A stretch of 35,610 bases of DNA from a virus. Location: the IMG/VR virus record IMGVR_UViG_3300032668_001453, positions 1 through 35,610 of that record, one strand, 5' to 3'. Below, piece by piece: positions 6,821 to 28,860 of this stretch. The notes below the pieces were generated by a model. The model was not told the DNA's origin. It did no database searches and saw only the letters and a list, made by a program, of their open reading frames with translations. Numbering within the stretch: the stretch's first letter is position 1; every line of letters begins with the position of its first letter. Position numbers and translations under genes: made by a program.

Positions 6821-7543
6821 ATGCAATCTTTTAAGAACTTTCTAACTGAGACAAAAGTAAGTCTTGAATATCATACAACCTTAAATCCTGTTTTGTGGAT
6901 TGATGATAAATTAAAACCAGAAGTTAGAAAAGTTCTTTTAAGATTTGCAGATACTTGGGCAAAGTTTGCCAATATCAAGTCAGAATTGATTAAAGATGTA
7001 ATTATGACTGGTGGCAATGCAAACTATAATTATACAAGCAAATCAGATATTGATGTTCACATTGTCCTTGTTAGAAATGAATTAGGTTCCAATAGAGAAC
7101 AAGTTGATGACATTCTACAAGACAAGAAAATGCTATGGACTCTTTCACATAACGTAAGAGTTTTAGGATATCCTTTAGAGCCATATGCTCAAGATATTTC
7201 AGAAAAATATCCTGCTGGTCAAGGTGTTTATTCACTTAAAGATGATGTATGGATCCAAAAGCCTGAACATGGGAATTACAATTTTTCTGCTGATCCTATG
7301 TTGAAACGAAAAGTGATGTATTACGTTCATCTTATCAATACTATGATTAAAAATAAGATGGATATAAATACTTTTGATATTCTCAAGAAGAAATTGAGAG
7401 ACATGAGATCAGCCGGTATTGAAAAATCAGGTGAATTCTCACGGGAAAATCTTATTTTCAAAGAACTTAGAAATAGGGGTATTCTTGATAAGATGAATGC
7501 TTATCAGAAATCAATGAAAGATAAGAGTCTATCATTAACTTAA
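6821..7543 (+). CDS. Nucleotidyltransferase-fold protein with a capsid-targeting-like N-terminus
   Basis: The block TGGNANYNYTSKSDIDVHIV (about residues 63-82) has the G-G/S... S-D-x-D pattern of the pol-beta nucleotidyltransferase superfamily. Its two aspartates bind metal in active members. The N-terminus MQSFKNFLTE looks like the capsid-targeting sequence of T4 internal proteins (compare MKTYQEFI.E), including the L-x-E site cut by the gp21 prohead protease. If so, the protein is packaged and injected with the DNA. A late promoter box lies just upstream. The substrate is unknown; an antitoxin-like or RNA-modifying role is possible. Confidence 0.75.
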   Translation: MQSFKNFLTETKVSLEYHTTLNPVLWIDDKLKPEVRKVLLRFADTWAKFANIKSELIKDVIMTGGNANYNYTSKSDIDVHIVLVRNELGSNREQVDDILQDKKMLWTLSHNVRVLGYPLEPYAQDISEKYPAGQGVYSLKDDVWIQKPEHGNYNFSADPMLKRKVMYYVHLINTMIKNKMDINTFDILKKKLRDMRSAGIEKSGEFSRENLIFKELRNRGILDKMNAYQKSMKDKSLSLT

Positions 7544-7546
7544 TTG

Positions 7547-7575
7547 TTGACAAACTAAAACTATGGAGATATAAT
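7547..7575 (+). promoter_or_regulatory. Consensus sigma70 promoter overlapping the next start
   Basis: TTGACA (7547-7552), a 17-base spacer and TATAAT (7570-7575), all consensus. ATG 7576 follows at once, so a transcript would start about six bases inside that gene. The promoter may therefore really serve glutaredoxin and the genes beyond. Confidence 0.7.
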
Positions 7576-7797
7576 ATGGCTAGACCAGTAGTAAATTTAT
7601 ACTTGATTGAAGGTGAGGTTAGACTACAGCCACTACAGGCAGGTGCAAGTTCAGTTCAGTCAAAGCAGACACGACTTGTTTGGGCAAAGAATTTAAAGGA
7701 AGCGGTAGATAAGTATGAAGCTTATTTTGCTTCAATGAATAATGCTTCAGAGGCATATATTGTTCTCAACACCTCAACCACTGAAGCATTGAAGTAA
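7576..7797 (+). CDS. Hypothetical protein, 73 aa
   Basis: Small unrecognised protein (MARPVVNLYLIEGEVRLQPL... STTEALK). GGAGA six bases before ATG 7576 is the SD, although it overlaps a consensus promoter. No membrane segment or metal motif is seen. It lies 17 bases upstream of the glutaredoxin gene. Confidence 0.75.
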   Translation: MARPVVNLYLIEGEVRLQPLQAGASSVQSKQTRLVWAKNLKEAVDKYEAYFASMNNASEAYIVLNTSTTEALK

Positions 7798-7814: not shown

Positions 7815-8084
7815 ATGCAAGTTGAGATTTACACGAAGCCATCATGTAGCTATTGCTTTAAGGCCAAGGAACTTATGGCCAACAAGAATATAGTTTATAC
7901 TGAATATAAGCTGAATGAAGATTTTACTCGAGAAGTATTACTAGAAAAGTATCCTACAATCAAAACATATCCTGTAATTGTTATTGATGGTATGATGATT
8001 GGTGGATATGAACAGTTCAAGACAATGGTTCTTCTTGAAGAACAACGAACCGGTACTATGAAATTTTTGGCGGAGAATACTTGA
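7815..8084 (+). CDS. nrdC: Glutaredoxin
   Basis: Thiol-disulfide carrier of 89 residues. The active site is CSYC (residues 11-14, in KPSCSYCFKAKE), a variant of the usual CPYC. The TYPVIVIDG segment carries the conserved cis-proline, and GGYEQF follows as in glutaredoxins that dock glutathione. It most likely reduces the CxxC tail of the phage NrdA encoded upstream. The gene is closely followed by the WYL_2-like gene. The symbol is used by analogy with T4 nrdC, whose product is a thioredoxin/glutaredoxin hybrid. Confidence 0.92.
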   Translation: MQVEIYTKPSCSYCFKAKELMANKNIVYTEYKLNEDFTREVLLEKYPTIKTYPVIVIDGMMIGGYEQFKTMVLLEEQRTGTMKFLAENT

Positions 8085-8365: not shown

Positions 8366-8779
8366 ATGTTATATGTGACTGATAAGGTAACCCCATGGGG
8401 TTGGCACTGTATTATGGATGCTGCAGGCTGTAATCACAATTCAATTACAGATTATGATAATATCTATAATTTTGCAAAGGAACTGGTCAAGGAAATTGAC
8501 ATGGTTCCATATGGTGAACCACAGATTGTAAAGTTTGGATCAGGAGATAAGTCTGGATATACTCTAGTTCAACTTATCGAAACTTCAAACATTTGCGCTC
8601 ATTTTGTGGATGAAAATGATGAAGTCTATCTAGATGTATTCTCATGCAAGCCATATGATGTAAGAATTGTTGAAAATATGATGGTCAAGTATTTTAATGC
8701 TAAGACAATTCGGACTGGTTTTATTGAACGAAAAGCAATATTGCAAACACCACCAGCTCATGAAAGTGGAGCTGAATGA
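8366..8779 (+). CDS. AdoMet-decarboxylase-like pyruvoyl enzyme (SpeD family), copy 1
   Basis: The 137-residue length fits the class 1B SpeD proenzyme. GWHCIMDAAGC near the N-terminus matches the family's GxH...D start. Ser74, His79 and Cys94 (ETSNICAHF... LDVFSC) have the same spacing as the processing/catalytic Ser63, His68 and Cys83 of Thermotoga SpeD. The residue before the Ser is Thr instead of the usual Glu. Family enzymes self-cleave to form pyruvoyl and decarboxylate AdoMet; some homologues have switched to arginine or ornithine, so the substrate is open. Its stop overlaps the methyltransferase start. A paralogue lies at 17630. Confidence 0.82.
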   Translation: MLYVTDKVTPWGWHCIMDAAGCNHNSITDYDNIYNFAKELVKEIDMVPYGEPQIVKFGSGDKSGYTLVQLIETSNICAHFVDENDEVYLDVFSCKPYDVRIVENMMVKYFNAKTIRTGFIERKAILQTPPAHESGAE

Positions 8780-9600
8780 TGTTTATTTGGTCTGATTTTG
8801 ATCATAATTCACTCAATTCACAAAAGATGATTAAGGCTAAACAGGTAAATGGGCCTGAATATTGGCCAACAATGCGTGAAGTTTTTGAATATGATTGCAA
8901 GCATTTACCTCTTTCTCGCTTTAGGCTTTGGGCAAGTGTTCACAATGTTCCTTTTGTAACTCAATATAGAACAGGCAAATTTTATGCTGCTGCTCTTTCG
9001 GAAGCATATAAAAACCCTATTGTAGCAGAAGCGTTAAAAGAAAATTGGATTGGCATCCCTGTTGAAAAGGCAGAAGTATTTCGTGCTCTGAGTGATTTTG
9101 ATACATCAATTCAACGAATTCAGGATGTCGGTCATTTGGTCATTACAGACTTTACACCAGAAAGATTGTCCAGTTATAAAAGCATTATTGAAATTGGTGC
9201 TGGATATGGTGACATGTGTTCTGTAGTTCATAAAATGGGGTTTACTGGTAAATATACTATTATTGATATTCCAGAAATTAGCCCAATTCAGGATTACTAT
9301 TTAAAGAAGCAAGGTATCAATGCAAATTTCAGGTTTGAATCTACTGATGTAGAACCTGCGGATTTGGTTATTGCAACATGGTCTCTTTCGGAAACTCCAT
9401 TGGAATACCGTGAGAAATTGATGCCTACAATCATCGACTCCAAGAATTGGCTTGTCATGTATCAAGCTAAGATTTTTGGAAAGGAAGTAAATGATGAATA
9501 TTTCAGAACTATGTTCAAGGATAGAGATAGAGATCCTACATTTACAGTCTTTTCAGAAACACCATGGGATGGAAAGAATACGTATATGGTGATTCAATGA
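8776..9600 (+). CDS. Putative sugar O-methyltransferase
   Basis: SAM-dependent methyltransferase of 274 residues. Motif I is IIEIGAGYGDMCSVV (about residue 137), followed by KYTIIDIPEIS with the acidic residue expected to bind the ribose, and DLVIATWSLSETP as motif II/III. The pattern IPEISPIQDYYL is typical of 'putative sugar O-methyltransferases' found in surface-polysaccharide clusters. It starts in an ATGA overlap with the SpeD-like gene and ends in an ATGA overlap with the nucleotidyltransferase, so it is tightly linked to the heptose cluster and may methylate the finished sugar. Confidence 0.8.
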   Translation: MMFIWSDFDHNSLNSQKMIKAKQVNGPEYWPTMREVFEYDCKHLPLSRFRLWASVHNVPFVTQYRTGKFYAAALSEAYKNPIVAEALKENWIGIPVEKAEVFRALSDFDTSIQRIQDVGHLVITDFTPERLSSYKSIIEIGAGYGDMCSVVHKMGFTGKYTIIDIPEISPIQDYYLKKQGINANFRFESTDVEPADLVIATWSLSETPLEYREKLMPTIIDSKNWLVMYQAKIFGKEVNDEYFRTMFKDRDRDPTFTVFSETPWDGKNTYMVIQ

Positions 9601-10022
9601 TTGTAGGGTTTACATGTTCTGCATTTGATTTATTCCATGCAGGTCATATTGCTATGCTTAAGGAATGTAAGGAACAATGTGACTATCTTGTTGTAGGCCT
9701 CCAAACAGATCCTTCCATTGATAGAAAACACAAGAATAAGCCTATCCAATCAATTTTAGAACGATATATTCAACTAGAAGCTTGTAAGTATATTGACAAG
9801 ATTATTCCTTATGATACTGAAAAGGATTTAGAAAATCTGATCGGTATCATAAGGCCTACTAAACGATTTGTTGGTGTTGAATATATGAGAATTTCACTTA
9901 CAGGAACAACAGTCTGTATGCAAGTGGGAACCGAAATTATTTACAATACTAGAAATCATTCTTATAGTTCAACAGAATTGAGAAAGAGAATACATGATGC
10001 TTCCGTCACCACACACCGATAA
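9597..10022 (+). CDS. Cytidylyltransferase-fold enzyme (HldE C-domain/TagD-like)
   Basis: The start at ATG 9597, overlapping the upstream stop as ATGA, gives MIVGFTCSAFDLFHAGHIAM with the nucleotide-binding HxGH motif near residues 14-17. The C-terminal YSSTELRKRI matches the ISSTxxR motif. These define the RfaE domain II / TagD family, which attaches AMP or CMP to a sugar or alcohol phosphate. Beside gmhA, gmhB and an HddA-like kinase, the natural reading is transfer of a nucleotide to heptose 1-phosphate. A glycerol-phosphate cytidylyltransferase remains possible. The length of 141 residues is normal. Confidence 0.85.
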   Translation: MIVGFTCSAFDLFHAGHIAMLKECKEQCDYLVVGLQTDPSIDRKHKNKPIQSILERYIQLEACKYIDKIIPYDTEKDLENLIGIIRPTKRFVGVEYMRISLTGTTVCMQVGTEIIYNTRNHSYSSTELRKRIHDASVTTHR

Positions 10023-10602
10023 ATATTTTCAAGAAGTACTTGAAATTGCACAACTCTGTAATAATAAAGAATTTATTGCTAAGGTAAGTTCTATCAGTAG
10101 ATTTTTATGGGATGTGCGGGATTCAAAGGGTCGTGTATTTGTTCTTGGTGTAGGTGGATCTGCTGGCAATGCATCACACATGGTCAATGATCTTAGAAAA
10201 CTTTGTGGCATTGAAGCATATTCACCTGTTGATAATGTCTCGGAACTTACTGCTAGAACCAATGATGATGGTTTTGAGACCGTATTTTCTGAGTGGCTTA
10301 GAACTTCAAAGTTAAATCATACCGATGCCGTTTTATTCTTATCAGTCGGTGGTGGTTCAAAGGAACGTGGAATTTCTGTAAATCTAATCAATGCTCTTGA
10401 TCTAGCAAAAGTTAGAGGTGCTTTTACTATTGGCATCGTAGGTAAAGCCGATGGCTATATTGCTAAGAATGCCGATATTGCATTGGTTGTTCCTTCTGTA
10501 AATCCTGATAGAATTACCCCACACTCTGAAGCATTCCAAAGTATCATCTGGCATTGCTTTGTTAGCAATCCTTATTTACAAGTGAGAAAGACTACCTGGT
10601 AA
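9994..10602 (+). CDS. gmhA: Sedoheptulose 7-phosphate isomerase (GmhA-like SIS protein)
   Basis: GmhA converts sedoheptulose 7-phosphate to D-glycero-D-manno-heptose 7-phosphate, the first committed heptose step. The sequence has the SIS signature VLGVGGSAGNASHMVNDLRK, where GmhA proteins have GNGGSAxxAxHxxxE. It also has LSVGGGSKERG, and TPHSEAFQSIIWH in the place of the C-terminal metal/active-site helix. At 202 residues it is close to family length. It overlaps the upstream gene by 29 bases (ATG at 9994 or 9997) and the downstream gene by one base, so it is part of a compact operon. Confidence 0.85.
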   Translation: MMLPSPHTDKYFQEVLEIAQLCNNKEFIAKVSSISRFLWDVRDSKGRVFVLGVGGSAGNASHMVNDLRKLCGIEAYSPVDNVSELTARTNDDGFETVFSEWLRTSKLNHTDAVLFLSVGGGSKERGISVNLINALDLAKVRGAFTIGIVGKADGYIAKNADIALVVPSVNPDRITPHSEAFQSIIWHCFVSNPYLQVRKTTW

Positions 10603-11126
10603 TGAAGTGTGTATTCCTTGATCGTGACGGCGTAATAAATAAACTTGTAGAAAGACCAAACGGAGAAAGAACTGCTCCATGGTCTTTTGAGGAATTTGAA
10701 TTACTTCCAAACGTAAAAGAATCCATTGACAAAATCCACAAAATGGGTTATAGTATTATTGTGGTAACAAATCAACCCGACGTAAATGACGGCAAATTAT
10801 CCCTTGAAGATTTAAGGAAAATGAATGCTGTCATCTATTCAATGGGTGTATTGAATATACATTCCTCTATGGGTCGAAATACACCAGAATATAAGCCAAA
10901 TAATGCTCACGTAGAACTATATATTACCTTATATAGAATTGATAAAATCAAAAGTTTTATGATCGGTGATAGATGGAAAGACATTGTGTGTGGTCATAGA
11001 AGTGGTCTAACTACTATTTTTCTAGGTGAAACTTACACGACATCCGCGGAATTTAGTGATATTAAACCTACTATGATTGCTAGAGATATTAAAGAAGCTG
11101 TTGATCTTATTGAAAGGATTATATAA
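10602..11126 (+). CDS. gmhB: HAD-family heptose bisphosphate phosphatase (GmhB-like)
   Basis: Removes the 7-phosphate from heptose 1,7-bisphosphate. HAD motif I is FLDRDGVIN (nucleophile Asp7, Asp9), motif II is VVTNQPDV, motif III Lys lies in EYKPNN, and motif IV is GDRWKDIVCG. The first ten residues are nearly identical to GmhB and to histidinol-phosphate phosphatases. Unusually, the zinc-binding cysteine loop that GmhB carries before motif III is missing: the region reads SSMGRNTPEYKP. It overlaps both neighbours by a single base. Confidence 0.86.
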   Translation: MKCVFLDRDGVINKLVERPNGERTAPWSFEEFELLPNVKESIDKIHKMGYSIIVVTNQPDVNDGKLSLEDLRKMNAVIYSMGVLNIHSSMGRNTPEYKPNNAHVELYITLYRIDKIKSFMIGDRWKDIVCGHRSGLTTIFLGETYTTSAEFSDIKPTMIARDIKEAVDLIERII

Positions 11127-11854
11127 TGAATTATTATGTCGACATCTATGCTGATGGCGCTGATGAAAATGGAATTCTAGAGGCGGCAAAGAATCCCATC
11201 GTGAAAGGTTTTACTACAAATCCATCACTTATGCGCGCCGCTGGTATCACAGACTATATGGAATTCTGTAATAGAATTATTCCAAAGCTCAAGGAACTCC
11301 GTCCTGATACCAATATCAGTCTTGAAGTATTTTCAGACGATCACGGTGAAATGGTCGACCAAGCTCTAAAGCTTGATGCTCTCTCGAAGACTTATGGCTA
11401 TCCTGTTCTTGTCAAGATTCCTTGTATTGATACAAAAGGTGAAACTACAGGGAATGTAGTTCGAACTCTTACGCGCGAAGGTGTGTCTGTAAATGTTACT
11501 GCTGTATTTACAAATAAGCAATATTCACGTGCTGTTTGGGATCTAGAAGGAACCAACTTTGGTATTGTTTCAATTTTTGCAGGAAGAATACAGGATTCCG
11601 GAAGAAATGCAAAGAATCTGATTAAGGATTGGCAGGGTGCAAATCCGCCTTCAAAAAATATTAAACTCTTGTGGGCATCAACACGTGAAGTAAATCATGT
11701 TATTCAAGCCGACTATTGTTTCTCTGATATTATTACTATGACTCCCGATCTCATTAAGAAGTTACCTCTTCTAGGAAAAAATCTAGATGACTATTCTATT
11801 GAGACCGTAAAGATGTTTTACAATGATGCTCAGGCATCTGGATACAAGATTTAA
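11126..11854 (+). CDS. Transaldolase-like enzyme
   Basis: 242 residues with transaldolase/fructose-6-phosphate aldolase features: KGFTTNPSLMRAAG, the Schiff-base lysine in PVLVKIP, VSVNVTAVFTNKQ, GIVSIFAGRIQDSGR and LLWASTRE. Transaldolase interconverts sedoheptulose 7-phosphate with fructose 6-phosphate. Cyanophages carry related talC genes to redirect host carbon. Here it lies inside the heptose cluster, so its likely job is to provide sedoheptulose 7-phosphate for GmhA. Start ATG 11126 overlaps the previous stop. Confidence 0.9.
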   Translation: MNYYVDIYADGADENGILEAAKNPIVKGFTTNPSLMRAAGITDYMEFCNRIIPKLKELRPDTNISLEVFSDDHGEMVDQALKLDALSKTYGYPVLVKIPCIDTKGETTGNVVRTLTREGVSVNVTAVFTNKQYSRAVWDLEGTNFGIVSIFAGRIQDSGRNAKNLIKDWQGANPPSKNIKLLWASTREVNHVIQADYCFSDIITMTPDLIKKLPLLGKNLDDYSIETVKMFYNDAQASGYKI

Positions 11855-11863
11855 GGATATATT

Positions 11864-12859
11864 ATGTCATTTGAAGAAAATGAAATTTCAGTAAACGCAA
11901 ATGGTGGAACTGAAATTGCCAAACGTAAGTTGGCTAGTATTATTGATCCAAATCTATTGGAACATTTTCAGATTATCTCGTCGCGACCTAGAGAACTAAA
12001 ACAGGATAAGATTAGAATATTTTGGGCTCACGACTTGCCCGAAGACCCGGAATCTTCCAAATTTAAAAATAATAACTTTCTAAATGATATTCATCAATTT
12101 GTATTTATTTCAAATTGGCAATATCAACGATATCATCTTATTCATGGTCTTGCATATGACCAGAAGTCTATTGTTCTGGAAACTGGTATTGAACCAGCGC
12201 CACAATTACAAGATCGTGATGATGAAACCATTCGTCTTGTATATACATCAACCCCAAATCGAGGTCTAGAACTTCTTGTTCCTGTTGTAGAAGAGTTATC
12301 AAAAATTCATCCTGAAATTCATCTTGATGTATTTTCATCTTTTAAGATTTATGGTTGGGAAGAATCAGACAAGGCATTTGAACCACTGTATAATCGGATC
12401 AGACAACATCCAAATATGACCTATCGTGGATTTGTTCCAAATGCAGAACTTAAGGAACATCTAAACAAGTCTCATATTTTTGCTTATCCTTCTATATGGC
12501 TTGAGACTAGTTGTAGAGCTATGTTGGAAGCAATGTCTGCTGGACTTATTTGTGTACATCCTGACTATGGTGCTTTGCCTGAAACATCTGGTGGTTTAAA
12601 TATCATGTATCACGGTGATTCAAATAAGGTAATTCATGCAAATATTTTTGCATCACATCTAGATGCAGCAATCAAACTTTATAAAACAAAGCAACATAAG
12701 AATATGATTCAGTTGAATAAGGCTTTTGTTGATACTCGGTATAACATTGATCTCATCAAGAACAAATGGGAGCATATGCTCAAGGGACTTTTGGAAAAAT
12801 ATCCTACACCCGAGAGTAGAAAGAAACCATCAGAAACATTTGTCTATAGGACAGTGTGA
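11864..12859 (+). CDS. Glycosyltransferase, GT4-like (GT-B fold)
   Basis: 331-residue retaining-type glycosyltransferase. The N-terminus has the glycine-rich NANGGTEIAKR acceptor loop. The C-terminal half has LVYTSTPNRGLELL, TYRGFVPNAEL and AYPSIWLETSCRAMLEAMSAG; the last contains the E-x7-E motif that binds the nucleotide-sugar phosphates. No membrane segment is seen. Its place between transaldolase and HddA suggests that it uses the activated heptose as donor, but the acceptor (LPS, virion protein or DNA) cannot be told. The ATG has TAAGGA about 7 bases upstream. Confidence 0.88.
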   Translation: MSFEENEISVNANGGTEIAKRKLASIIDPNLLEHFQIISSRPRELKQDKIRIFWAHDLPEDPESSKFKNNNFLNDIHQFVFISNWQYQRYHLIHGLAYDQKSIVLETGIEPAPQLQDRDDETIRLVYTSTPNRGLELLVPVVEELSKIHPEIHLDVFSSFKIYGWEESDKAFEPLYNRIRQHPNMTYRGFVPNAELKEHLNKSHIFAYPSIWLETSCRAMLEAMSAGLICVHPDYGALPETSGGLNIMYHGDSNKVIHANIFASHLDAAIKLYKTKQHKNMIQLNKAFVDTRYNIDLIKNKWEHMLKGLLEKYPTPESRKKPSETFVYRTV

Positions 12860-13878
12860 TGATTATTTCAAAAACACCTCTCAGAATCTCATTCTTCTCT
12901 GGTGGTTCAGATATGGAATCCTTTTATAAAAAGGAACCTGGTGCTGCTCTTTCATGCACGATTGACAAATATATCTACACCCTAGTTCATCAGTCTCGTC
13001 ATATGAATTTCAAAACAATGTATGATGATATTCAGACTTATGAATCACTTGATGATATACAACACGATATTACACGCGAAGCATTAAAATACTATGGCAT
13101 GAGCAGTATGACTGATACTGTTACTACTGGATCAATTTCTGATATTATAGCAAAAGGTTCAGGTTTAGGTTCATCATCTGCATTTACTGTAGGTATTCTT
13201 AATTGTCTGAAACAAAGTCAAGAAAATACTTTTGGTAAATTTTCAAAATTGTATGATAATAAAAGAGTATTAGCTGAAGAGGCATGTAAAATTGAAATTG
13301 AAAAATGTGGATTTCCTATCGGCAAGCAGGATCAATATGCTGCGGCGTATGGCGGCTTTAATCTTTATAGGTTTAATACTGACGGAAGTGTTGATATTAC
13401 ATCTCCTTCTATTCCTGAAAAGGCTCTTAGGAAATTAGAAAATAATCTTTTCCTTGTATATTCTGGAAAGCCTAGGTCTGCCAATGCAATTCTTAAAAAG
13501 CAAAATGATGCTATGACAGATTCTCATAAGTTTCAGTTAGTTGCCAATTCACGTGATAAAGCATATGAAGGAATGAAACTACTTTGTGAAAATAAGGTAG
13601 AAGATTTTGCTCATCTTCTTCATAGAGCATGGATGGATAAGAAACAAGTAACAAAAGATATTTCGAATACTTTTTTTGATGATATATATGATAAAGCCAT
13701 TCAAAATGGCGCTATTGGTGGCAAATTGCTTGGTGCTGGTGGCGGTGGTTTTTTCATCTTTTATGTTCCACCAGATTCCAGAAGAGATGTTGCGATTGCC
13801 ATCACTAATGGAACCGGTTGCAAAATCTATGATTTTAACTTTACCTTTAATGGTAGTACAATCATCGGAAATGATTGA
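12859..13878 (+). CDS. hddA: D-glycero-D-manno-heptose 7-phosphate kinase (HddA-like GHMP kinase)
   Basis: GHMP-superfamily kinase phosphorylating C1 of heptose 7-phosphate. MIISKTPLRISFFSGGSDMESFY is the characteristic HddA start, split here by only one substitution pattern from bacterial enzymes. The ATP loop GSGLGSSSAFTVG lies near residue 97, GKQDQYAAAYGG near residue 155, and the C-terminal motif GGKLLGAGGGGFFIFY near residue 290. The length of 339 residues is typical. ATG 12859 is chosen over GTG 12856 because it matches the family start and overlaps the upstream stop (TGATG). HddA makes the alpha anomer, normally for GDP-heptose; no separate guanylyltransferase gene is seen here. Confidence 0.92.
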   Translation: MIISKTPLRISFFSGGSDMESFYKKEPGAALSCTIDKYIYTLVHQSRHMNFKTMYDDIQTYESLDDIQHDITREALKYYGMSSMTDTVTTGSISDIIAKGSGLGSSSAFTVGILNCLKQSQENTFGKFSKLYDNKRVLAEEACKIEIEKCGFPIGKQDQYAAAYGGFNLYRFNTDGSVDITSPSIPEKALRKLENNLFLVYSGKPRSANAILKKQNDAMTDSHKFQLVANSRDKAYEGMKLLCENKVEDFAHLLHRAWMDKKQVTKDISNTFFDDIYDKAIQNGAIGGKLLGAGGGGFFIFYVPPDSRRDVAIAITNGTGCKIYDFNFTFNGSTIIGND

Positions 13879-13909: not shown

Positions 13910-14299
13910 ATGGCAAAATCATCAAACAACATCATTCGATTTCCAATTAAACCTAATTTTGGTTCTCCAACAAACATAGAGGAAGTTGAAAATAATATTG
14001 AATTTGTAAAACAGTTTCATATTCAAGAAACAATCGAGACCGTCATTCCTTTTCTATTTGATAGATTAAACATGGCAGGTTTTGATCTAGATGATGAAAA
14101 TGATGATGATCTAAGATATGGCGCTTTTATCTGTGAGGCAATTAGATCATTACTTTGTAGTAAATGTGATATGAATCATATGTTTCAAATATTTGCCAAA
14201 TCACTTTTTATTGAGGATGAAGATGGTTATCTCAATTTAGTGGAAAATGCCGATATTAACATTAAGGTAAGTAAAGACAAAGACAAAAAACTTGATTGA
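13910..14299 (+). CDS. Hypothetical protein, 129 aa
   Basis: Unrecognised acidic protein (MAKSSNNIIRFPIKPNFGS...) with a DLDDENDDDLRYG segment and a basic SKDKDKKLD tail. It starts exactly where transcription from the promoter just upstream is predicted to begin and has no SD, so it looks leaderless. It begins a new transcription unit after the heptose cluster. Homologues in other T4-like phages are likely, but I cannot name a function. Confidence 0.75.
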   Translation: MAKSSNNIIRFPIKPNFGSPTNIEEVENNIEFVKQFHIQETIETVIPFLFDRLNMAGFDLDDENDDDLRYGAFICEAIRSLLCSKCDMNHMFQIFAKSLFIEDEDGYLNLVENADINIKVSKDKDKKLD

Positions 14300-14395: not shown

Positions 14396-15274
14396 GTGAT
14401 TATTGTGGATCTATCCCAGGTAGTATTAGCAAATCTAATGGCACAACTTGGGACTCATACAAATACTGAGGTCGAGGAAAATATGCTACGGCATATGATT
14501 CTCAATTCTCTTCGTATGAATAAAAATAAATTTGGTTCTGAATACGGCCAATTTGTTATTGCTTGTGATAATAAAAACTATTGGCGGAAACAAATCTTCC
14601 CATATTATAAGGCCAATCGAAAGAAGAATATCGAGAAGTCTGAATTGAATTGGAAGCAAATATTTGAATGTATGAATAAGATTCGTCAGGAATTGAAGGA
14701 TCACTTCCCATATACTGTCATTGACATTGAAACAGCAGAGGCCGATGATGTCATTGCATCTCTTTGCAGGAAATATGGCGTTACTGATGAATATCTTCCA
14801 TTTGAAAATGTTGAAAAGATCCTAATCCTTTCAGGTGACCACGATTTTATTCAACTTCAAAAATACAAGAATGTTGAACAATATGATCCCGTAAAGAAGA
14901 AAAAGGTTACTCATCCCAATCCTAAAAATTACCTTCGTGAACACATTCTTCGCGGTGATTCTGGCGATGGAATTCCTAATTTTCTCTCAGCTGATAATTG
15001 TCTTGTTGTGGGTGAACGACAAAAAGGTGTGTCATCTAAGAAACTTGAGGAATGGATGGACAAGGATCCTACACTATTTTGCACAGAGATTATGCTTAGA
15101 AACTATCGGAGAAATGAACAACTAATTGATCTTGATAAAGTTCCAAATGATATATATAATAGGGTCATTGAAAGTTTTGAAGGTCAAAAGAATAAGAAGT
15201 CGAATGATCTGATGAATTACTTTATGTCTCATCGTCTAAAAAATCTTATGGAAAATATCGGAGAGTTTGTATGA
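14396..15274 (+). CDS. rnh: T4-type RNase H (5'-3' exonuclease/flap endonuclease)
   Basis: FEN1/T4 RNase H family nuclease that removes RNA primers from lagging-strand fragments. Acidic metal-binding clusters occur in order: IIVDLSQ, IACDNK, ETAEADDVIASL, LSGDHDFIQL and RGDSGDGIPNFLS. FPYYKANRKKN is the conserved substrate-binding block. The length of 292 residues is close to T4's 305. The start is GTG 14396, supported by GAGGAG 7 bases upstream. In T4 rnh lies next to genes 33, 59 and 32; here those genes are 6-14 kb away on other segments. Confidence 0.92.
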   Translation: MIIVDLSQVVLANLMAQLGTHTNTEVEENMLRHMILNSLRMNKNKFGSEYGQFVIACDNKNYWRKQIFPYYKANRKKNIEKSELNWKQIFECMNKIRQELKDHFPYTVIDIETAEADDVIASLCRKYGVTDEYLPFENVEKILILSGDHDFIQLQKYKNVEQYDPVKKKKVTHPNPKNYLREHILRGDSGDGIPNFLSADNCLVVGERQKGVSSKKLEEWMDKDPTLFCTEIMLRNYRRNEQLIDLDKVPNDIYNRVIESFEGQKNKKSNDLMNYFMSHRLKNLMENIGEFV

Positions 15275-17610: not shown

Positions 17611-17629
17611 AGAAAAAGAAGGATTGTTT

Positions 17630-18073
17630 ATGGAAAAATTTAAAAAATTTTCTGATTTTATAAAACCTGAAGAATTAGATGATGCTCCAAGAAAACCTAA
17701 TCGCAAGTTACATTGGGGGTATCATCTTCTTTTGGATATGAGTCTGTGTAATAAAAACATAGACAATGAAAATGTTGTTCGAGCATTCTTAAAAGAGCTT
17801 ATTAGAGAATTAAAGATGACACCAATTGGTGATCCTTTAATAGCAAAAGTTGATGGTGAAGATGGTCGAGGTCTTTCGGCAATACAACTTATTACCACCT
17901 CTTCTATCACGTTTCACGGTGATGATGAAAAAATGTCAGTATATCTAGACATTTTTTCTTGTAAATCTTATGATCCTAAACAAGCTATGCAAACAGTGAT
18001 TAAATATTTCAATCCTAAGCATATAGGCCATAAATTCATCACAAGAGATGCAGGAGATTATCCCAAAAAATGA
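17630..18073 (+). CDS. AdoMet-decarboxylase-like pyruvoyl enzyme (SpeD family), copy 2
   Basis: Start ATG 17630 has AAGGA 6 bases upstream. The 147-residue protein has a short N-terminal extension (MEKFKKFSDFIKPEEL), loosely like a phage capsid-targeting leader. It then gives LHWGYHLLLDMSLC and the SpeD core. Ser91, His96 and Cys111 (TTSSITFHGDD... LDIFSC) have the family's 5- and 15-residue spacing; the residue before Ser is Thr, not Glu. It clearly shares descent with the gene at 8366. Its stop overlaps the amidinotransferase-like start (ATGA), which suggests an arginine or agmatine-related pathway rather than classical spermidine synthesis. Confidence 0.8.
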   Translation: MEKFKKFSDFIKPEELDDAPRKPNRKLHWGYHLLLDMSLCNKNIDNENVVRAFLKELIRELKMTPIGDPLIAKVDGEDGRGLSAIQLITTSSITFHGDDEKMSVYLDIFSCKSYDPKQAMQTVIKYFNPKHIGHKFITRDAGDYPKK

Positions 18074-28457: not shown

Positions 28458-28525
28458 AAAAAAACTATACTCGTCAAATTTGGAATCCTATTTGGAGTCA
28501 AGTTATAGAAGATTTGAGATGGTAA
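28451..28525 (+). CDS. Last member of chain B, 24 aa
   Basis: MVEKNYTRQIWNPIWSQVIE, then DLRW. A minimal member: start, one or two QV/QI units and the conserved end. Its stop again sits in ATGGTAA; the next frame closes after five codons, so the chain ends here, at the tmRNA promoter. Confidence 0.5.
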   Translation: MVEKNYTRQIWNPIWSQVIEDLRW

Positions 28526-28532
28526 TTTTTTG

Positions 28533-28563
28533 TTGACAATACCATTTAAATGGTGTATAAATA
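28533..28563 (+). promoter_or_regulatory. Combined early/late promoter of the tmRNA
   Basis: TTGACA (28533-28538), a 17-base spacer and TATAAATA (28556-28563). The -10 is at once a sigma70 box and the exact T4 late element, so the RNA could be made throughout infection. Confidence 0.78.
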
Positions 28564-28569
28564 TAAATG

Positions 28570-28860
28570 TTGCTGTTGATTGCAATCAAATAGACTTGCT
28601 GAGACGGGAGTGCGACTCTCCCCACCTCCACCATAAGCACACGGTATGTCAGAACACTGGATGCAAGTCGTGTGTTTATGATGGGGGTGACTAGGTTCGA
28701 TCAGCTGTGGTAAGGGTTGAGGTAGGCAATGAGTAAGACACGACTCACAATCAGTTCAAAAACTATAAATGCCAACGATAATGTTGCATTTGAGGGAACT
28801 GCCCTAGCGGCATAACCTCATTGGGTATGGGCTCCACCTAGAAACAGAACGGGCCCAATA
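28570..28860 (+). ncRNA. ssrA: Circularly permuted (two-piece) tmRNA
   Basis: Rescues stalled ribosomes and tags their products for proteolysis. Gene order is permuted. The acceptor piece comes first: T-arm GGGAG-TGCGACT-CTCCC and CACCTCC-A-CCA ending at 28633. A linker (28634-28682) whose ends pair (TAAGCACACG with CGTGTGTTTA) follows, then the coding piece starting GGGGGTGACTAGGTTCGATC at 28683. GGGGGTG pairs with CACCTCC over 7 bp and contains the G3-U70 wobble that alanyl-tRNA synthetase requires. The tag frame at 28771-28812 encodes ANDNVAFEGTALAA, then TAA. ANDN is typical of alphaproteobacteria and the ALAA end is a ClpXP signal. Outer ends are approximate. Confidence 0.93.

Follow-up and report, generated by a model that had tools for sequence, protein, structure and literature searches.

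A transaldolase-linked cassette proposed to make an activated heptose beside a constant glycosyltransferase gene in T4-like phages

What would a T4-like phage do with a compact set of genes for an activated seven-carbon sugar? The question is raised by the IMG/VR virus record IMGVR_UViG_3300032668_001453, a 35.6 kb stretch (35,610 nucleotides) that was analyzed as a whole and is termed the window here, and in which the genes at positions 8776-13878 resemble a complete heptose activation pathway joined to a glycosyltransferase. Our answer, to which we give a probability of about one half when taken as a whole, is that the locus serves as an exchangeable donor-sugar cassette for a constant GT4-type glycosyltransferase, in which a nucleoside diphosphate (NDP)-heptose is made and the acceptor lies on the host surface; the NDP-heptose pathway by itself is considerably more probable. 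Along the proposed route, a transaldolase would form sedoheptulose 7-phosphate from fructose 6-phosphate and erythrose 4-phosphate, and a GmhA-like isomerase would convert it to a D-glycero-aldoheptose 7-phosphate. This would then be phosphorylated at C1 by an HddA-type kinase, relieved of its 7-phosphate by a HAD phosphatase, and turned into NDP-heptose by a TagD/HldE-type nucleotidyltransferase.

All seven genes of the 8776-13878 run are intact open reading frames. The run is preceded by a gene for S-adenosylmethionine decarboxylase (speD) and proceeds through methyltransferase, nucleotidyltransferase, GmhA-like isomerase, HAD phosphatase, transaldolase, GT4 glycosyltransferase and HddA kinase, with overlaps in the form of ATGA between speD and the methyltransferase gene and again, at 9597, between the methyltransferase and nucleotidyltransferase genes (which probably fixes the start of the latter), of one base each at the isomerase-phosphatase and phosphatase-transaldolase junctions, and of four bases between glycosyltransferase and kinase. 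The overlapping operon described by the initial annotation is therefore borne out, but its gene order is not: the methyltransferase was placed last and instead comes first (8776-9600), and the glycosyltransferase sits between transaldolase and kinase. Over its 13.1 kb, a contig that comes from a separate IMG/VR sample (L002) is identical to the window, which argues against misassembly, and purifying selection acts on all cassette genes in the relatives (dN/dS medians 0.05-0.20), indicating that they are maintained; the gene set is thus real.

The same gene order recurs in more than 60 contigs. Occurrence was counted over 54 distinct glycosyltransferase loci in relatives with both flanks visible, and 41 of these carry the complete set of nucleotidyltransferase, isomerase, HAD phosphatase, transaldolase and HddA, with the methyltransferase additionally present in 14. 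The remaining 13 loci comprise three without the nucleotidyltransferase, one with isomerase, transaldolase and HddA, one with nucleotidyltransferase and isomerase, three with the HAD gene only, and five in which the glycosyltransferase stands alone. HddA, encoded downstream of the glycosyltransferase, and the transaldolase, encoded upstream of it, are both present in 45 loci and both absent in nine, and neither ever occurs without the other (Fisher 2e-10, a value inflated by relatedness). Because of this inflation, changes were counted on an RNase H tree, where transaldolase tracks HddA in all five presence changes that fall on well-supported branches (seven changes in total; sign test p 0.06, a test that with five pairs cannot go below 0.05). 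Two empty loci, L195 and L201, together form the sister group of the window on this tree. Isomerase, kinase, phosphatase, nucleotidyltransferase and transaldolase are accordingly a co-inherited unit beside the glycosyltransferase, in keeping with the initial annotation.

Individual loci vary further. In L211, L234 and L235 the GmhB-like HAD gene alone adjoins the glycosyltransferase gene, with no isomerase, kinase or transaldolase, and in L222 a peroxiredoxin-like gene (7121-7702) occupies the cassette site. In L008 (5015-10981) and L092 (6254-10466), isomerase, transaldolase and HddA are paired with nucleotide-sugar epimerases, and L008 also has SDR and Gfo/Idh dehydrogenases, which suggests that these variants make a further modified heptose. 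The speD gene is found with or without the cassette, including at the empty loci L195, L201, L215, L222 and L239.

This pattern across the 54 loci, together with the covariation of two genes that flank the glycosyltransferase, identifies the glycosyltransferase gene as the constant element and the heptose genes as an exchangeable donor-sugar cassette. The glycosyltransferase is assigned to its family by Pfam Glycos_transf_1 (42 bits) and phrog_2170 (151 bits), and its homologues in Caulobacter phage Cr30, Sinorhizobium phage phiM12 and Stenotrophomonas phage DLP6 (40-43%) are each preceded by a glutaredoxin gene; in phiM12 it is bracketed by glutaredoxin and RNase H, with no heptose genes. It is older than the heptose genes and occurs without them, and so need not be a dedicated heptosyltransferase; its use of an NDP-heptose donor is proposed here.

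Domain searches placed each cassette protein in the family that the initial annotation had named. The HddA kinase is the clearest assignment (NF049969, 149 bits over the full length, next best 55, with a cut-off of 600 bits that is not reached); its GHMP kinase domains are present, and its nearest PDB chains are 3k85, annotated as a heptose kinase (E 2.5e-35), and 4usk. The HAD phosphatase matches HAD-IIIA at 63 bits and the GmhB profile PRK08942 at 62 bits, with conserved catalytic residues D7, D9, T56, K98 and D123 (of which D7, D9, K98 and D123 are invariant). The region of its zinc-binding cysteine cluster contains no cysteine in 37 of 51 phage sequences, the window included, and the zinc cysteines are retained by most bacterial relatives. 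The methyltransferase scores 40 bits against TIGR04371 NanM, slightly below the cut-off of 44.

The transaldolase scores 234 bits against TIGR02134, and K97 (the Schiff-base lysine), E67 and F151 are invariant in 53 phage sequences. Glutamate and phenylalanine at the latter two positions separate transaldolase from fructose 6-phosphate aldolase. The auxiliary metabolic genes known from cyanophages include talC, for which a role in the pentose phosphate pathway has been proposed. With ribonucleotide reductase and thyX nearby, the transaldolase could likewise serve that pathway for nucleotide synthesis, with its heptose neighbors incidental. Against this, the score is only 100 bits for the phage transaldolase family phrog_440, the gene is never found without HddA in the 54 loci, and it sits in the same heptose operon across bacterial phyla; we consider such a role highly improbable, and identification as a cyanophage-type talC was rejected on the profile scores and the co-inheritance with HddA.

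The isomerase is best filed as GmhA-like. Its score against TIGR00441 (gmhA) is 58 bits, where the curated cut-off is 209, yet its AlphaFold model has a GmhA-type SIS fold whose best PDB matches are the GmhA structures 5lu7, 5ltz, 1tk9 and 2x3y (TM 0.68-0.72; E 5e-9 for the match at TM 0.71). The active site of Burkholderia pseudomallei GmhA, which we take to be D61, H64, E68, Q175 and H183 (numbering partly from PDB mutant names), corresponds in the phage protein to N59, H62, D66, E179 and H187, so that the canonical H-E-Q-H pattern becomes H-D-E-H (H62/D66/E179/H187). The bacterial members of the subfamily are identical at these positions, and the residues do not vary among 58 phage homologues and 81 others, which argues for a distinct subfamily and not for decay. 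An H-D-E-H reading is also possible for the Cr30 isomerase and for that of the cyanophage SynMITS9220M01. On alignment, catalytic residues are kept in the phosphatase and the transaldolase, and departures from the canonical enzymes are seen in the isomerase and in the phosphatase zinc site.

When bacterial genomes were scanned using the isomerase alignment, the same isomerase-HAD-transaldolase order was recovered in Rhodospirillales, Burkholderiales, Nitrospirales, Opitutaceae, Acidobacteria and other records, many of which are metagenome bins whose names may be wrong. Two settings recur, one with HddA and an HddC-like enzyme (L132, L130) and one with a fused nucleotidyltransferase-PfkB kinase (L112, L165), as read from the sequences and not by profile search; L130 also shares SDR and Gfo/Idh genes with the phage variant L008. 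That alternative kinases and nucleotidyltransferases are supplied for the same steps is good evidence for an NDP-heptose product, and ties the transaldolase to heptose supply. No paper linking transaldolase, hddA and gmhA was found in the literature collection searched, which is incomplete.

The initial annotation had linked the pathway to heptose of the lipopolysaccharide (LPS) core. However, the operon isomerase forms a subfamily apart from that of the core, and canonical GmhA is also encoded in 15 of 19 operon-bearing bacterial genomes (119-202 bits, vs ∼46-60 for the operon isomerase subfamily) and a canonical HldE domain (at least 142 bits) in 17 of the 19; in most of these bacteria the operon would thus be a second heptose pathway, and the link to the core is unlikely. 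The same retention of GmhA and HldE, the replacement of D/E/Q by N59/D66/E179 in the isomerase, and the dehydrogenases of the variants would fit a product other than D-glycero-D-manno-heptose, such as an altro C2 epimer or an oxidized or epimerized derivative. An altro-heptose is formed from sedoheptulose 7-phosphate in hygromycin B biosynthesis. This alternative is compatible with our preferred explanation and possible, but we hold it to be the less probable outcome, as the HddA-like kinase and GmhB-like phosphatase are nearest to manno-heptose enzymes, the metal-site positions of the isomerase are kept, and its residue swaps are conservative. The phages may also have borrowed an undescribed second NDP-heptose pathway that is widespread in bacteria, in which a transaldolase-linked H-D-E-H isomerase, HddA and a TagD/HldE-type nucleotidyltransferase would yield a new NDP-heptose (e.g., ADP- or CDP-alpha-heptose, or a non-manno isomer) that is swapped as donor for one glycosyltransferase; we offer this as a tentative suggestion.

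The pathway is least secure at the nucleotidyltransferase. This enzyme is a member of a TagD/HldE-like family that is common in phages, often without other heptose genes, and matches PF01467 (CTP_transf_like, 55 bits). It scores 81 bits against TIGR02199 (rfaE_dom_II) and 54 bits against glycerol-3-phosphate cytidylyltransferase, both far below cut-off, and a specificity for heptose 1-phosphate over glycerol 3-phosphate is putative. Its HxGH and R...SSTxLR motifs are conserved in 44 phage sequences, and it is found in 42 of 46 isomerase-bearing loci; in L049 it is unlinked and retained elsewhere on the same contig. The nucleotidyltransferases of the bacterial operons are only 25-35% identical to it. 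A role in the pathway is supported by SynMITS9220M01, where a nucleotidyltransferase 37% identical to that of the window is fused to a HAD-like domain and adjoins the isomerase and HddA. The fusion, labeled a "hypothetical protein" in that genome (L244, 16052-16804), lies between a phosphoheptose isomerase and HldD. An HddC-type enzyme (PF00483) was found neither in ten related phage contigs nor among the scanned operon proteins. The mixture of an HddA kinase with an HldE-type transferase, singled out as unusual at the outset, is thus real, but it is not unique, given the SynMITS9220M01 arrangement.

As to the acceptor, the glycosyltransferase would move the sugar of the NDP-heptose, sometimes O-methylated, most likely to a host surface glycan early in infection, and a possible benefit is that adsorption of later phages would be blocked. 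A surface glycan is our best guess, followed by decoration of the virion, because the bacterial relatives of the cassette are located among polysaccharide genes, related phage clusters have been read as LPS genes (PMC7029224, PMC7378029), and early expression is suggested. The timing is suggested by a sigma-70-type promoter, predicted at 7547, from which a transcript running through the cassette is likely to start and which the host polymerase could use. Similar sites (at least 10/12) occur within 700 bp upstream of the glutaredoxin gene in 26 of 35 relatives (shuffled mean best 9.2), and sigma-70-like sites also lie in relatives between HddA and the small downstream gene (13910..14299).

A constant phage glycosyltransferase with variable donor modules would also fit if the same NDP-heptose were placed on a virion protein such as a tail fiber or capsid. 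The promoter, however, points to early and not late expression, structural genes are not linked to the cassette, and its bacterial relatives lie in polysaccharide clusters, all of which makes the virion an unlikely target. DNA can be a substrate for glycosyltransferases in T4-like phages, and the locus is placed among DNA metabolism genes, so that heptose on phage DNA for nuclease protection, comparable to glucose on hydroxymethylcytosine in T4, also has to be weighed. A thymidylate-synthase/hydroxymethylase homologue (PF00303) is nevertheless absent from eight long relatives (on contigs that are not necessarily complete, in a search confined to this base chemistry), and the polysaccharide context speaks against DNA as well. 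Glycosylation of DNA was one of the options raised initially; its T4-style form, glucosylation, was rejected on this absence, and we regard heptosylated DNA in general as quite improbable.

Several observations weigh against the proposal of a donor-sugar cassette that serves surface modification. Every cassette protein scores below its equivalog cut-off, so that the family assignments are supported and the exact substrates are not. Three of the five GmhA active-site residues differ in the phage isomerase; some of the closest annotated relatives of the nucleotidyltransferase (48-55%) come from phages whose annotation shows no further heptose gene in the vicinity, and four loci have kinase, isomerase and transaldolase with no nucleotidyltransferase inside the interval. 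The glycosyltransferase is kept in cassette-free relatives, so its donor may not be a heptose. The conservation of the promoter is modest, the early timing is putative, and the case for a surface acceptor is made solely from bacterial context and by elimination.

Table 1. Features of the cassette and its flanks (window positions), with proposed roles.
Feature	Position	Strand	Evidence
Sigma-70-type promoter TTGACA-17-TATAAT, predicted	7547..7575	+	12/12 match
Glutaredoxin (grx), a conserved marker on the upstream side of the variable locus	7815..8084	+	tblastn synteny in relatives
S-adenosylmethionine decarboxylase (speD), upstream flank	8366..8779	+	Pfam AdoMet_dc 73 bits
Putative sugar O-methyltransferase, optional cassette member	8776..9600	+	TIGR04371 NanM 40.4 bits, E 2.5e-10
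Nucleotidyltransferase, TagD/HldE-C superfamily, proposed heptose 1-phosphate nucleotidyltransferase	9597..10022	+	TIGR02199, PF01467
GmhA-like SIS isomerase, proposed sedoheptulose 7-phosphate isomerase	9994..10602	+	TIGR00441, AlphaFold model
HAD-IIIA phosphatase, GmhB-like, proposed heptose 1,7-bisphosphate 7-phosphatase	10602..11126	+	HAD-IIIA, PRK08942
Transaldolase, proposed sedoheptulose 7-phosphate supplier	11126..11854	+	TIGR02134
GT4-type glycosyltransferase, proposed activated-sugar user, constant gene of the locus	11864..12859	+	Glycos_transf_1, phrog_2170
GHMP kinase, HddA-like, proposed D-glycero-D-manno-heptose 7-phosphate 1-kinase	12856..13878	+	NF049969
Small conserved gene without assigned function, downstream flank marker	13910..14299	+	synteny
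T4-like RNase H (rnh), marks the downstream flank; backbone gene for the tree	14396..15274	+	49.8% identity to DLP6 and Melnitz RNase H/flap endonuclease

Genes for ribonucleotide reductase, ThyX, a T4-type RNase H and PhoH were seen among the open reading frames of the window. Judged by RNase H, the cultured phages closest to it are DLP6, Methylophilales phage Melnitz and the phiM12 group; comparison with known phages at the nucleotide level gave matches of only 60 bases. A second S-adenosylmethionine decarboxylase gene (17624-18073) is ∼44% identical to the one at 8366-8779, which leads into the cassette in most relatives. A permuted tmRNA of alphaproteobacterial type lies at 28516-28859 (RF01849, 79 bits; RF04321, 107 bits; tag ANDNVAFEGTALAA); the literature already has a two-piece viral tmRNA, that of phage Melnitz. 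A host search that compared the tmRNA with 289 genomes from the class to which Nisaea belongs returned only matches of 23-28 bases. Near the start of the window, a GC-rich patch at 102-376 (GC 0.455 in 1-1500) has overlapping open reading frames with long G-Y/H/N-G and R-L/P-R repeats, and may be a low-complexity coding repeat.

If the cassette reading is correct, the identity of the sugar is interchangeable within one family of T4-like phages, whose members retain the transferase and acquire or lose the pathway for its donor, and the role of phage sugar genes becomes testable with close relatives that have or lack the cassette. It would also mean that a transaldolase-linked operon for heptose, marked by a separate isomerase subfamily, is present in many bacterial phyla, mostly beside the core-LPS route, and that a further activated heptose may await description.

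Among known systems, the pathway to GDP-D-glycero-alpha-D-manno-heptose (GmhA, HddA, GmhB, HddC) is similar in combining an isomerase, an HddA-type GHMP kinase and a HAD phosphatase, which the window has in one operon. Both HddA and HddC can accompany the bacterial counterparts of the cassette (L132, L130), whereas the ten related phage contigs are without HddC, and the window differs from this pathway in its TagD/HldE-like nucleotidyltransferase, its added transaldolase and its divergent isomerase subfamily. The ADP-heptose pathway of the LPS core (GmhA, HldE, GmhB, HldD) has the same logical steps, and the window nucleotidyltransferase resembles the C-terminal domain of HldE, but the phage operon is without a PfkB-type kinase and without HldD (this applies to the operon, the rest of the phage genome lying outside the window). 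According to Tang et al. (Science 2024, as summarized in PMC11573728), viral heptose enzymes can make ADP-heptose, and some nucleotidyltransferases accept CTP and UTP too; the broad-NTP motif of STTR5 described there, (F/L)xxGRSTT, is absent from the window enzyme, which reads RNHSYSSTEL.

The closest phage precedents share parts of the cassette. In the cyanophages SynMITS9220M01 (whose heptose genes are published; PMC7378029), P-SSM2, P-TIM68, S-CAM3 and Bellamy, an isomerase, a kinase and a nucleotidyltransferase lie near glycosyltransferases, and HddA is likewise combined with a TagD/HldE-type nucleotidyltransferase. These clusters differ in being larger, with other isomerases, at another genomic site, with the HAD domain fused to the nucleotidyltransferase in SynMITS9220M01; where profiles were run, on two of the cluster regions, a matching transaldolase was absent. 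Cr30, a cultured T4-like phage, shares glutaredoxin, the glycosyltransferase homologue, HddA, an H-D-E-H isomerase and TagD near RNase H; it differs in having an extra epimerase, no transaldolase and, in the region checked, no matching HAD gene, and its isomerase is closer to canonical GmhA (101 bits). Phage heptose genes (Cr30, SynMITS9220M01, P-SSM2), the HddA and TagD/HldE-type combination, and viral NDP-heptose enzymes therefore all have precedents; what is new here is the transaldolase-linked subfamily, its spread over T4-like phages and bacterial phyla, and its behavior as an exchangeable unit around a constant glycosyltransferase.

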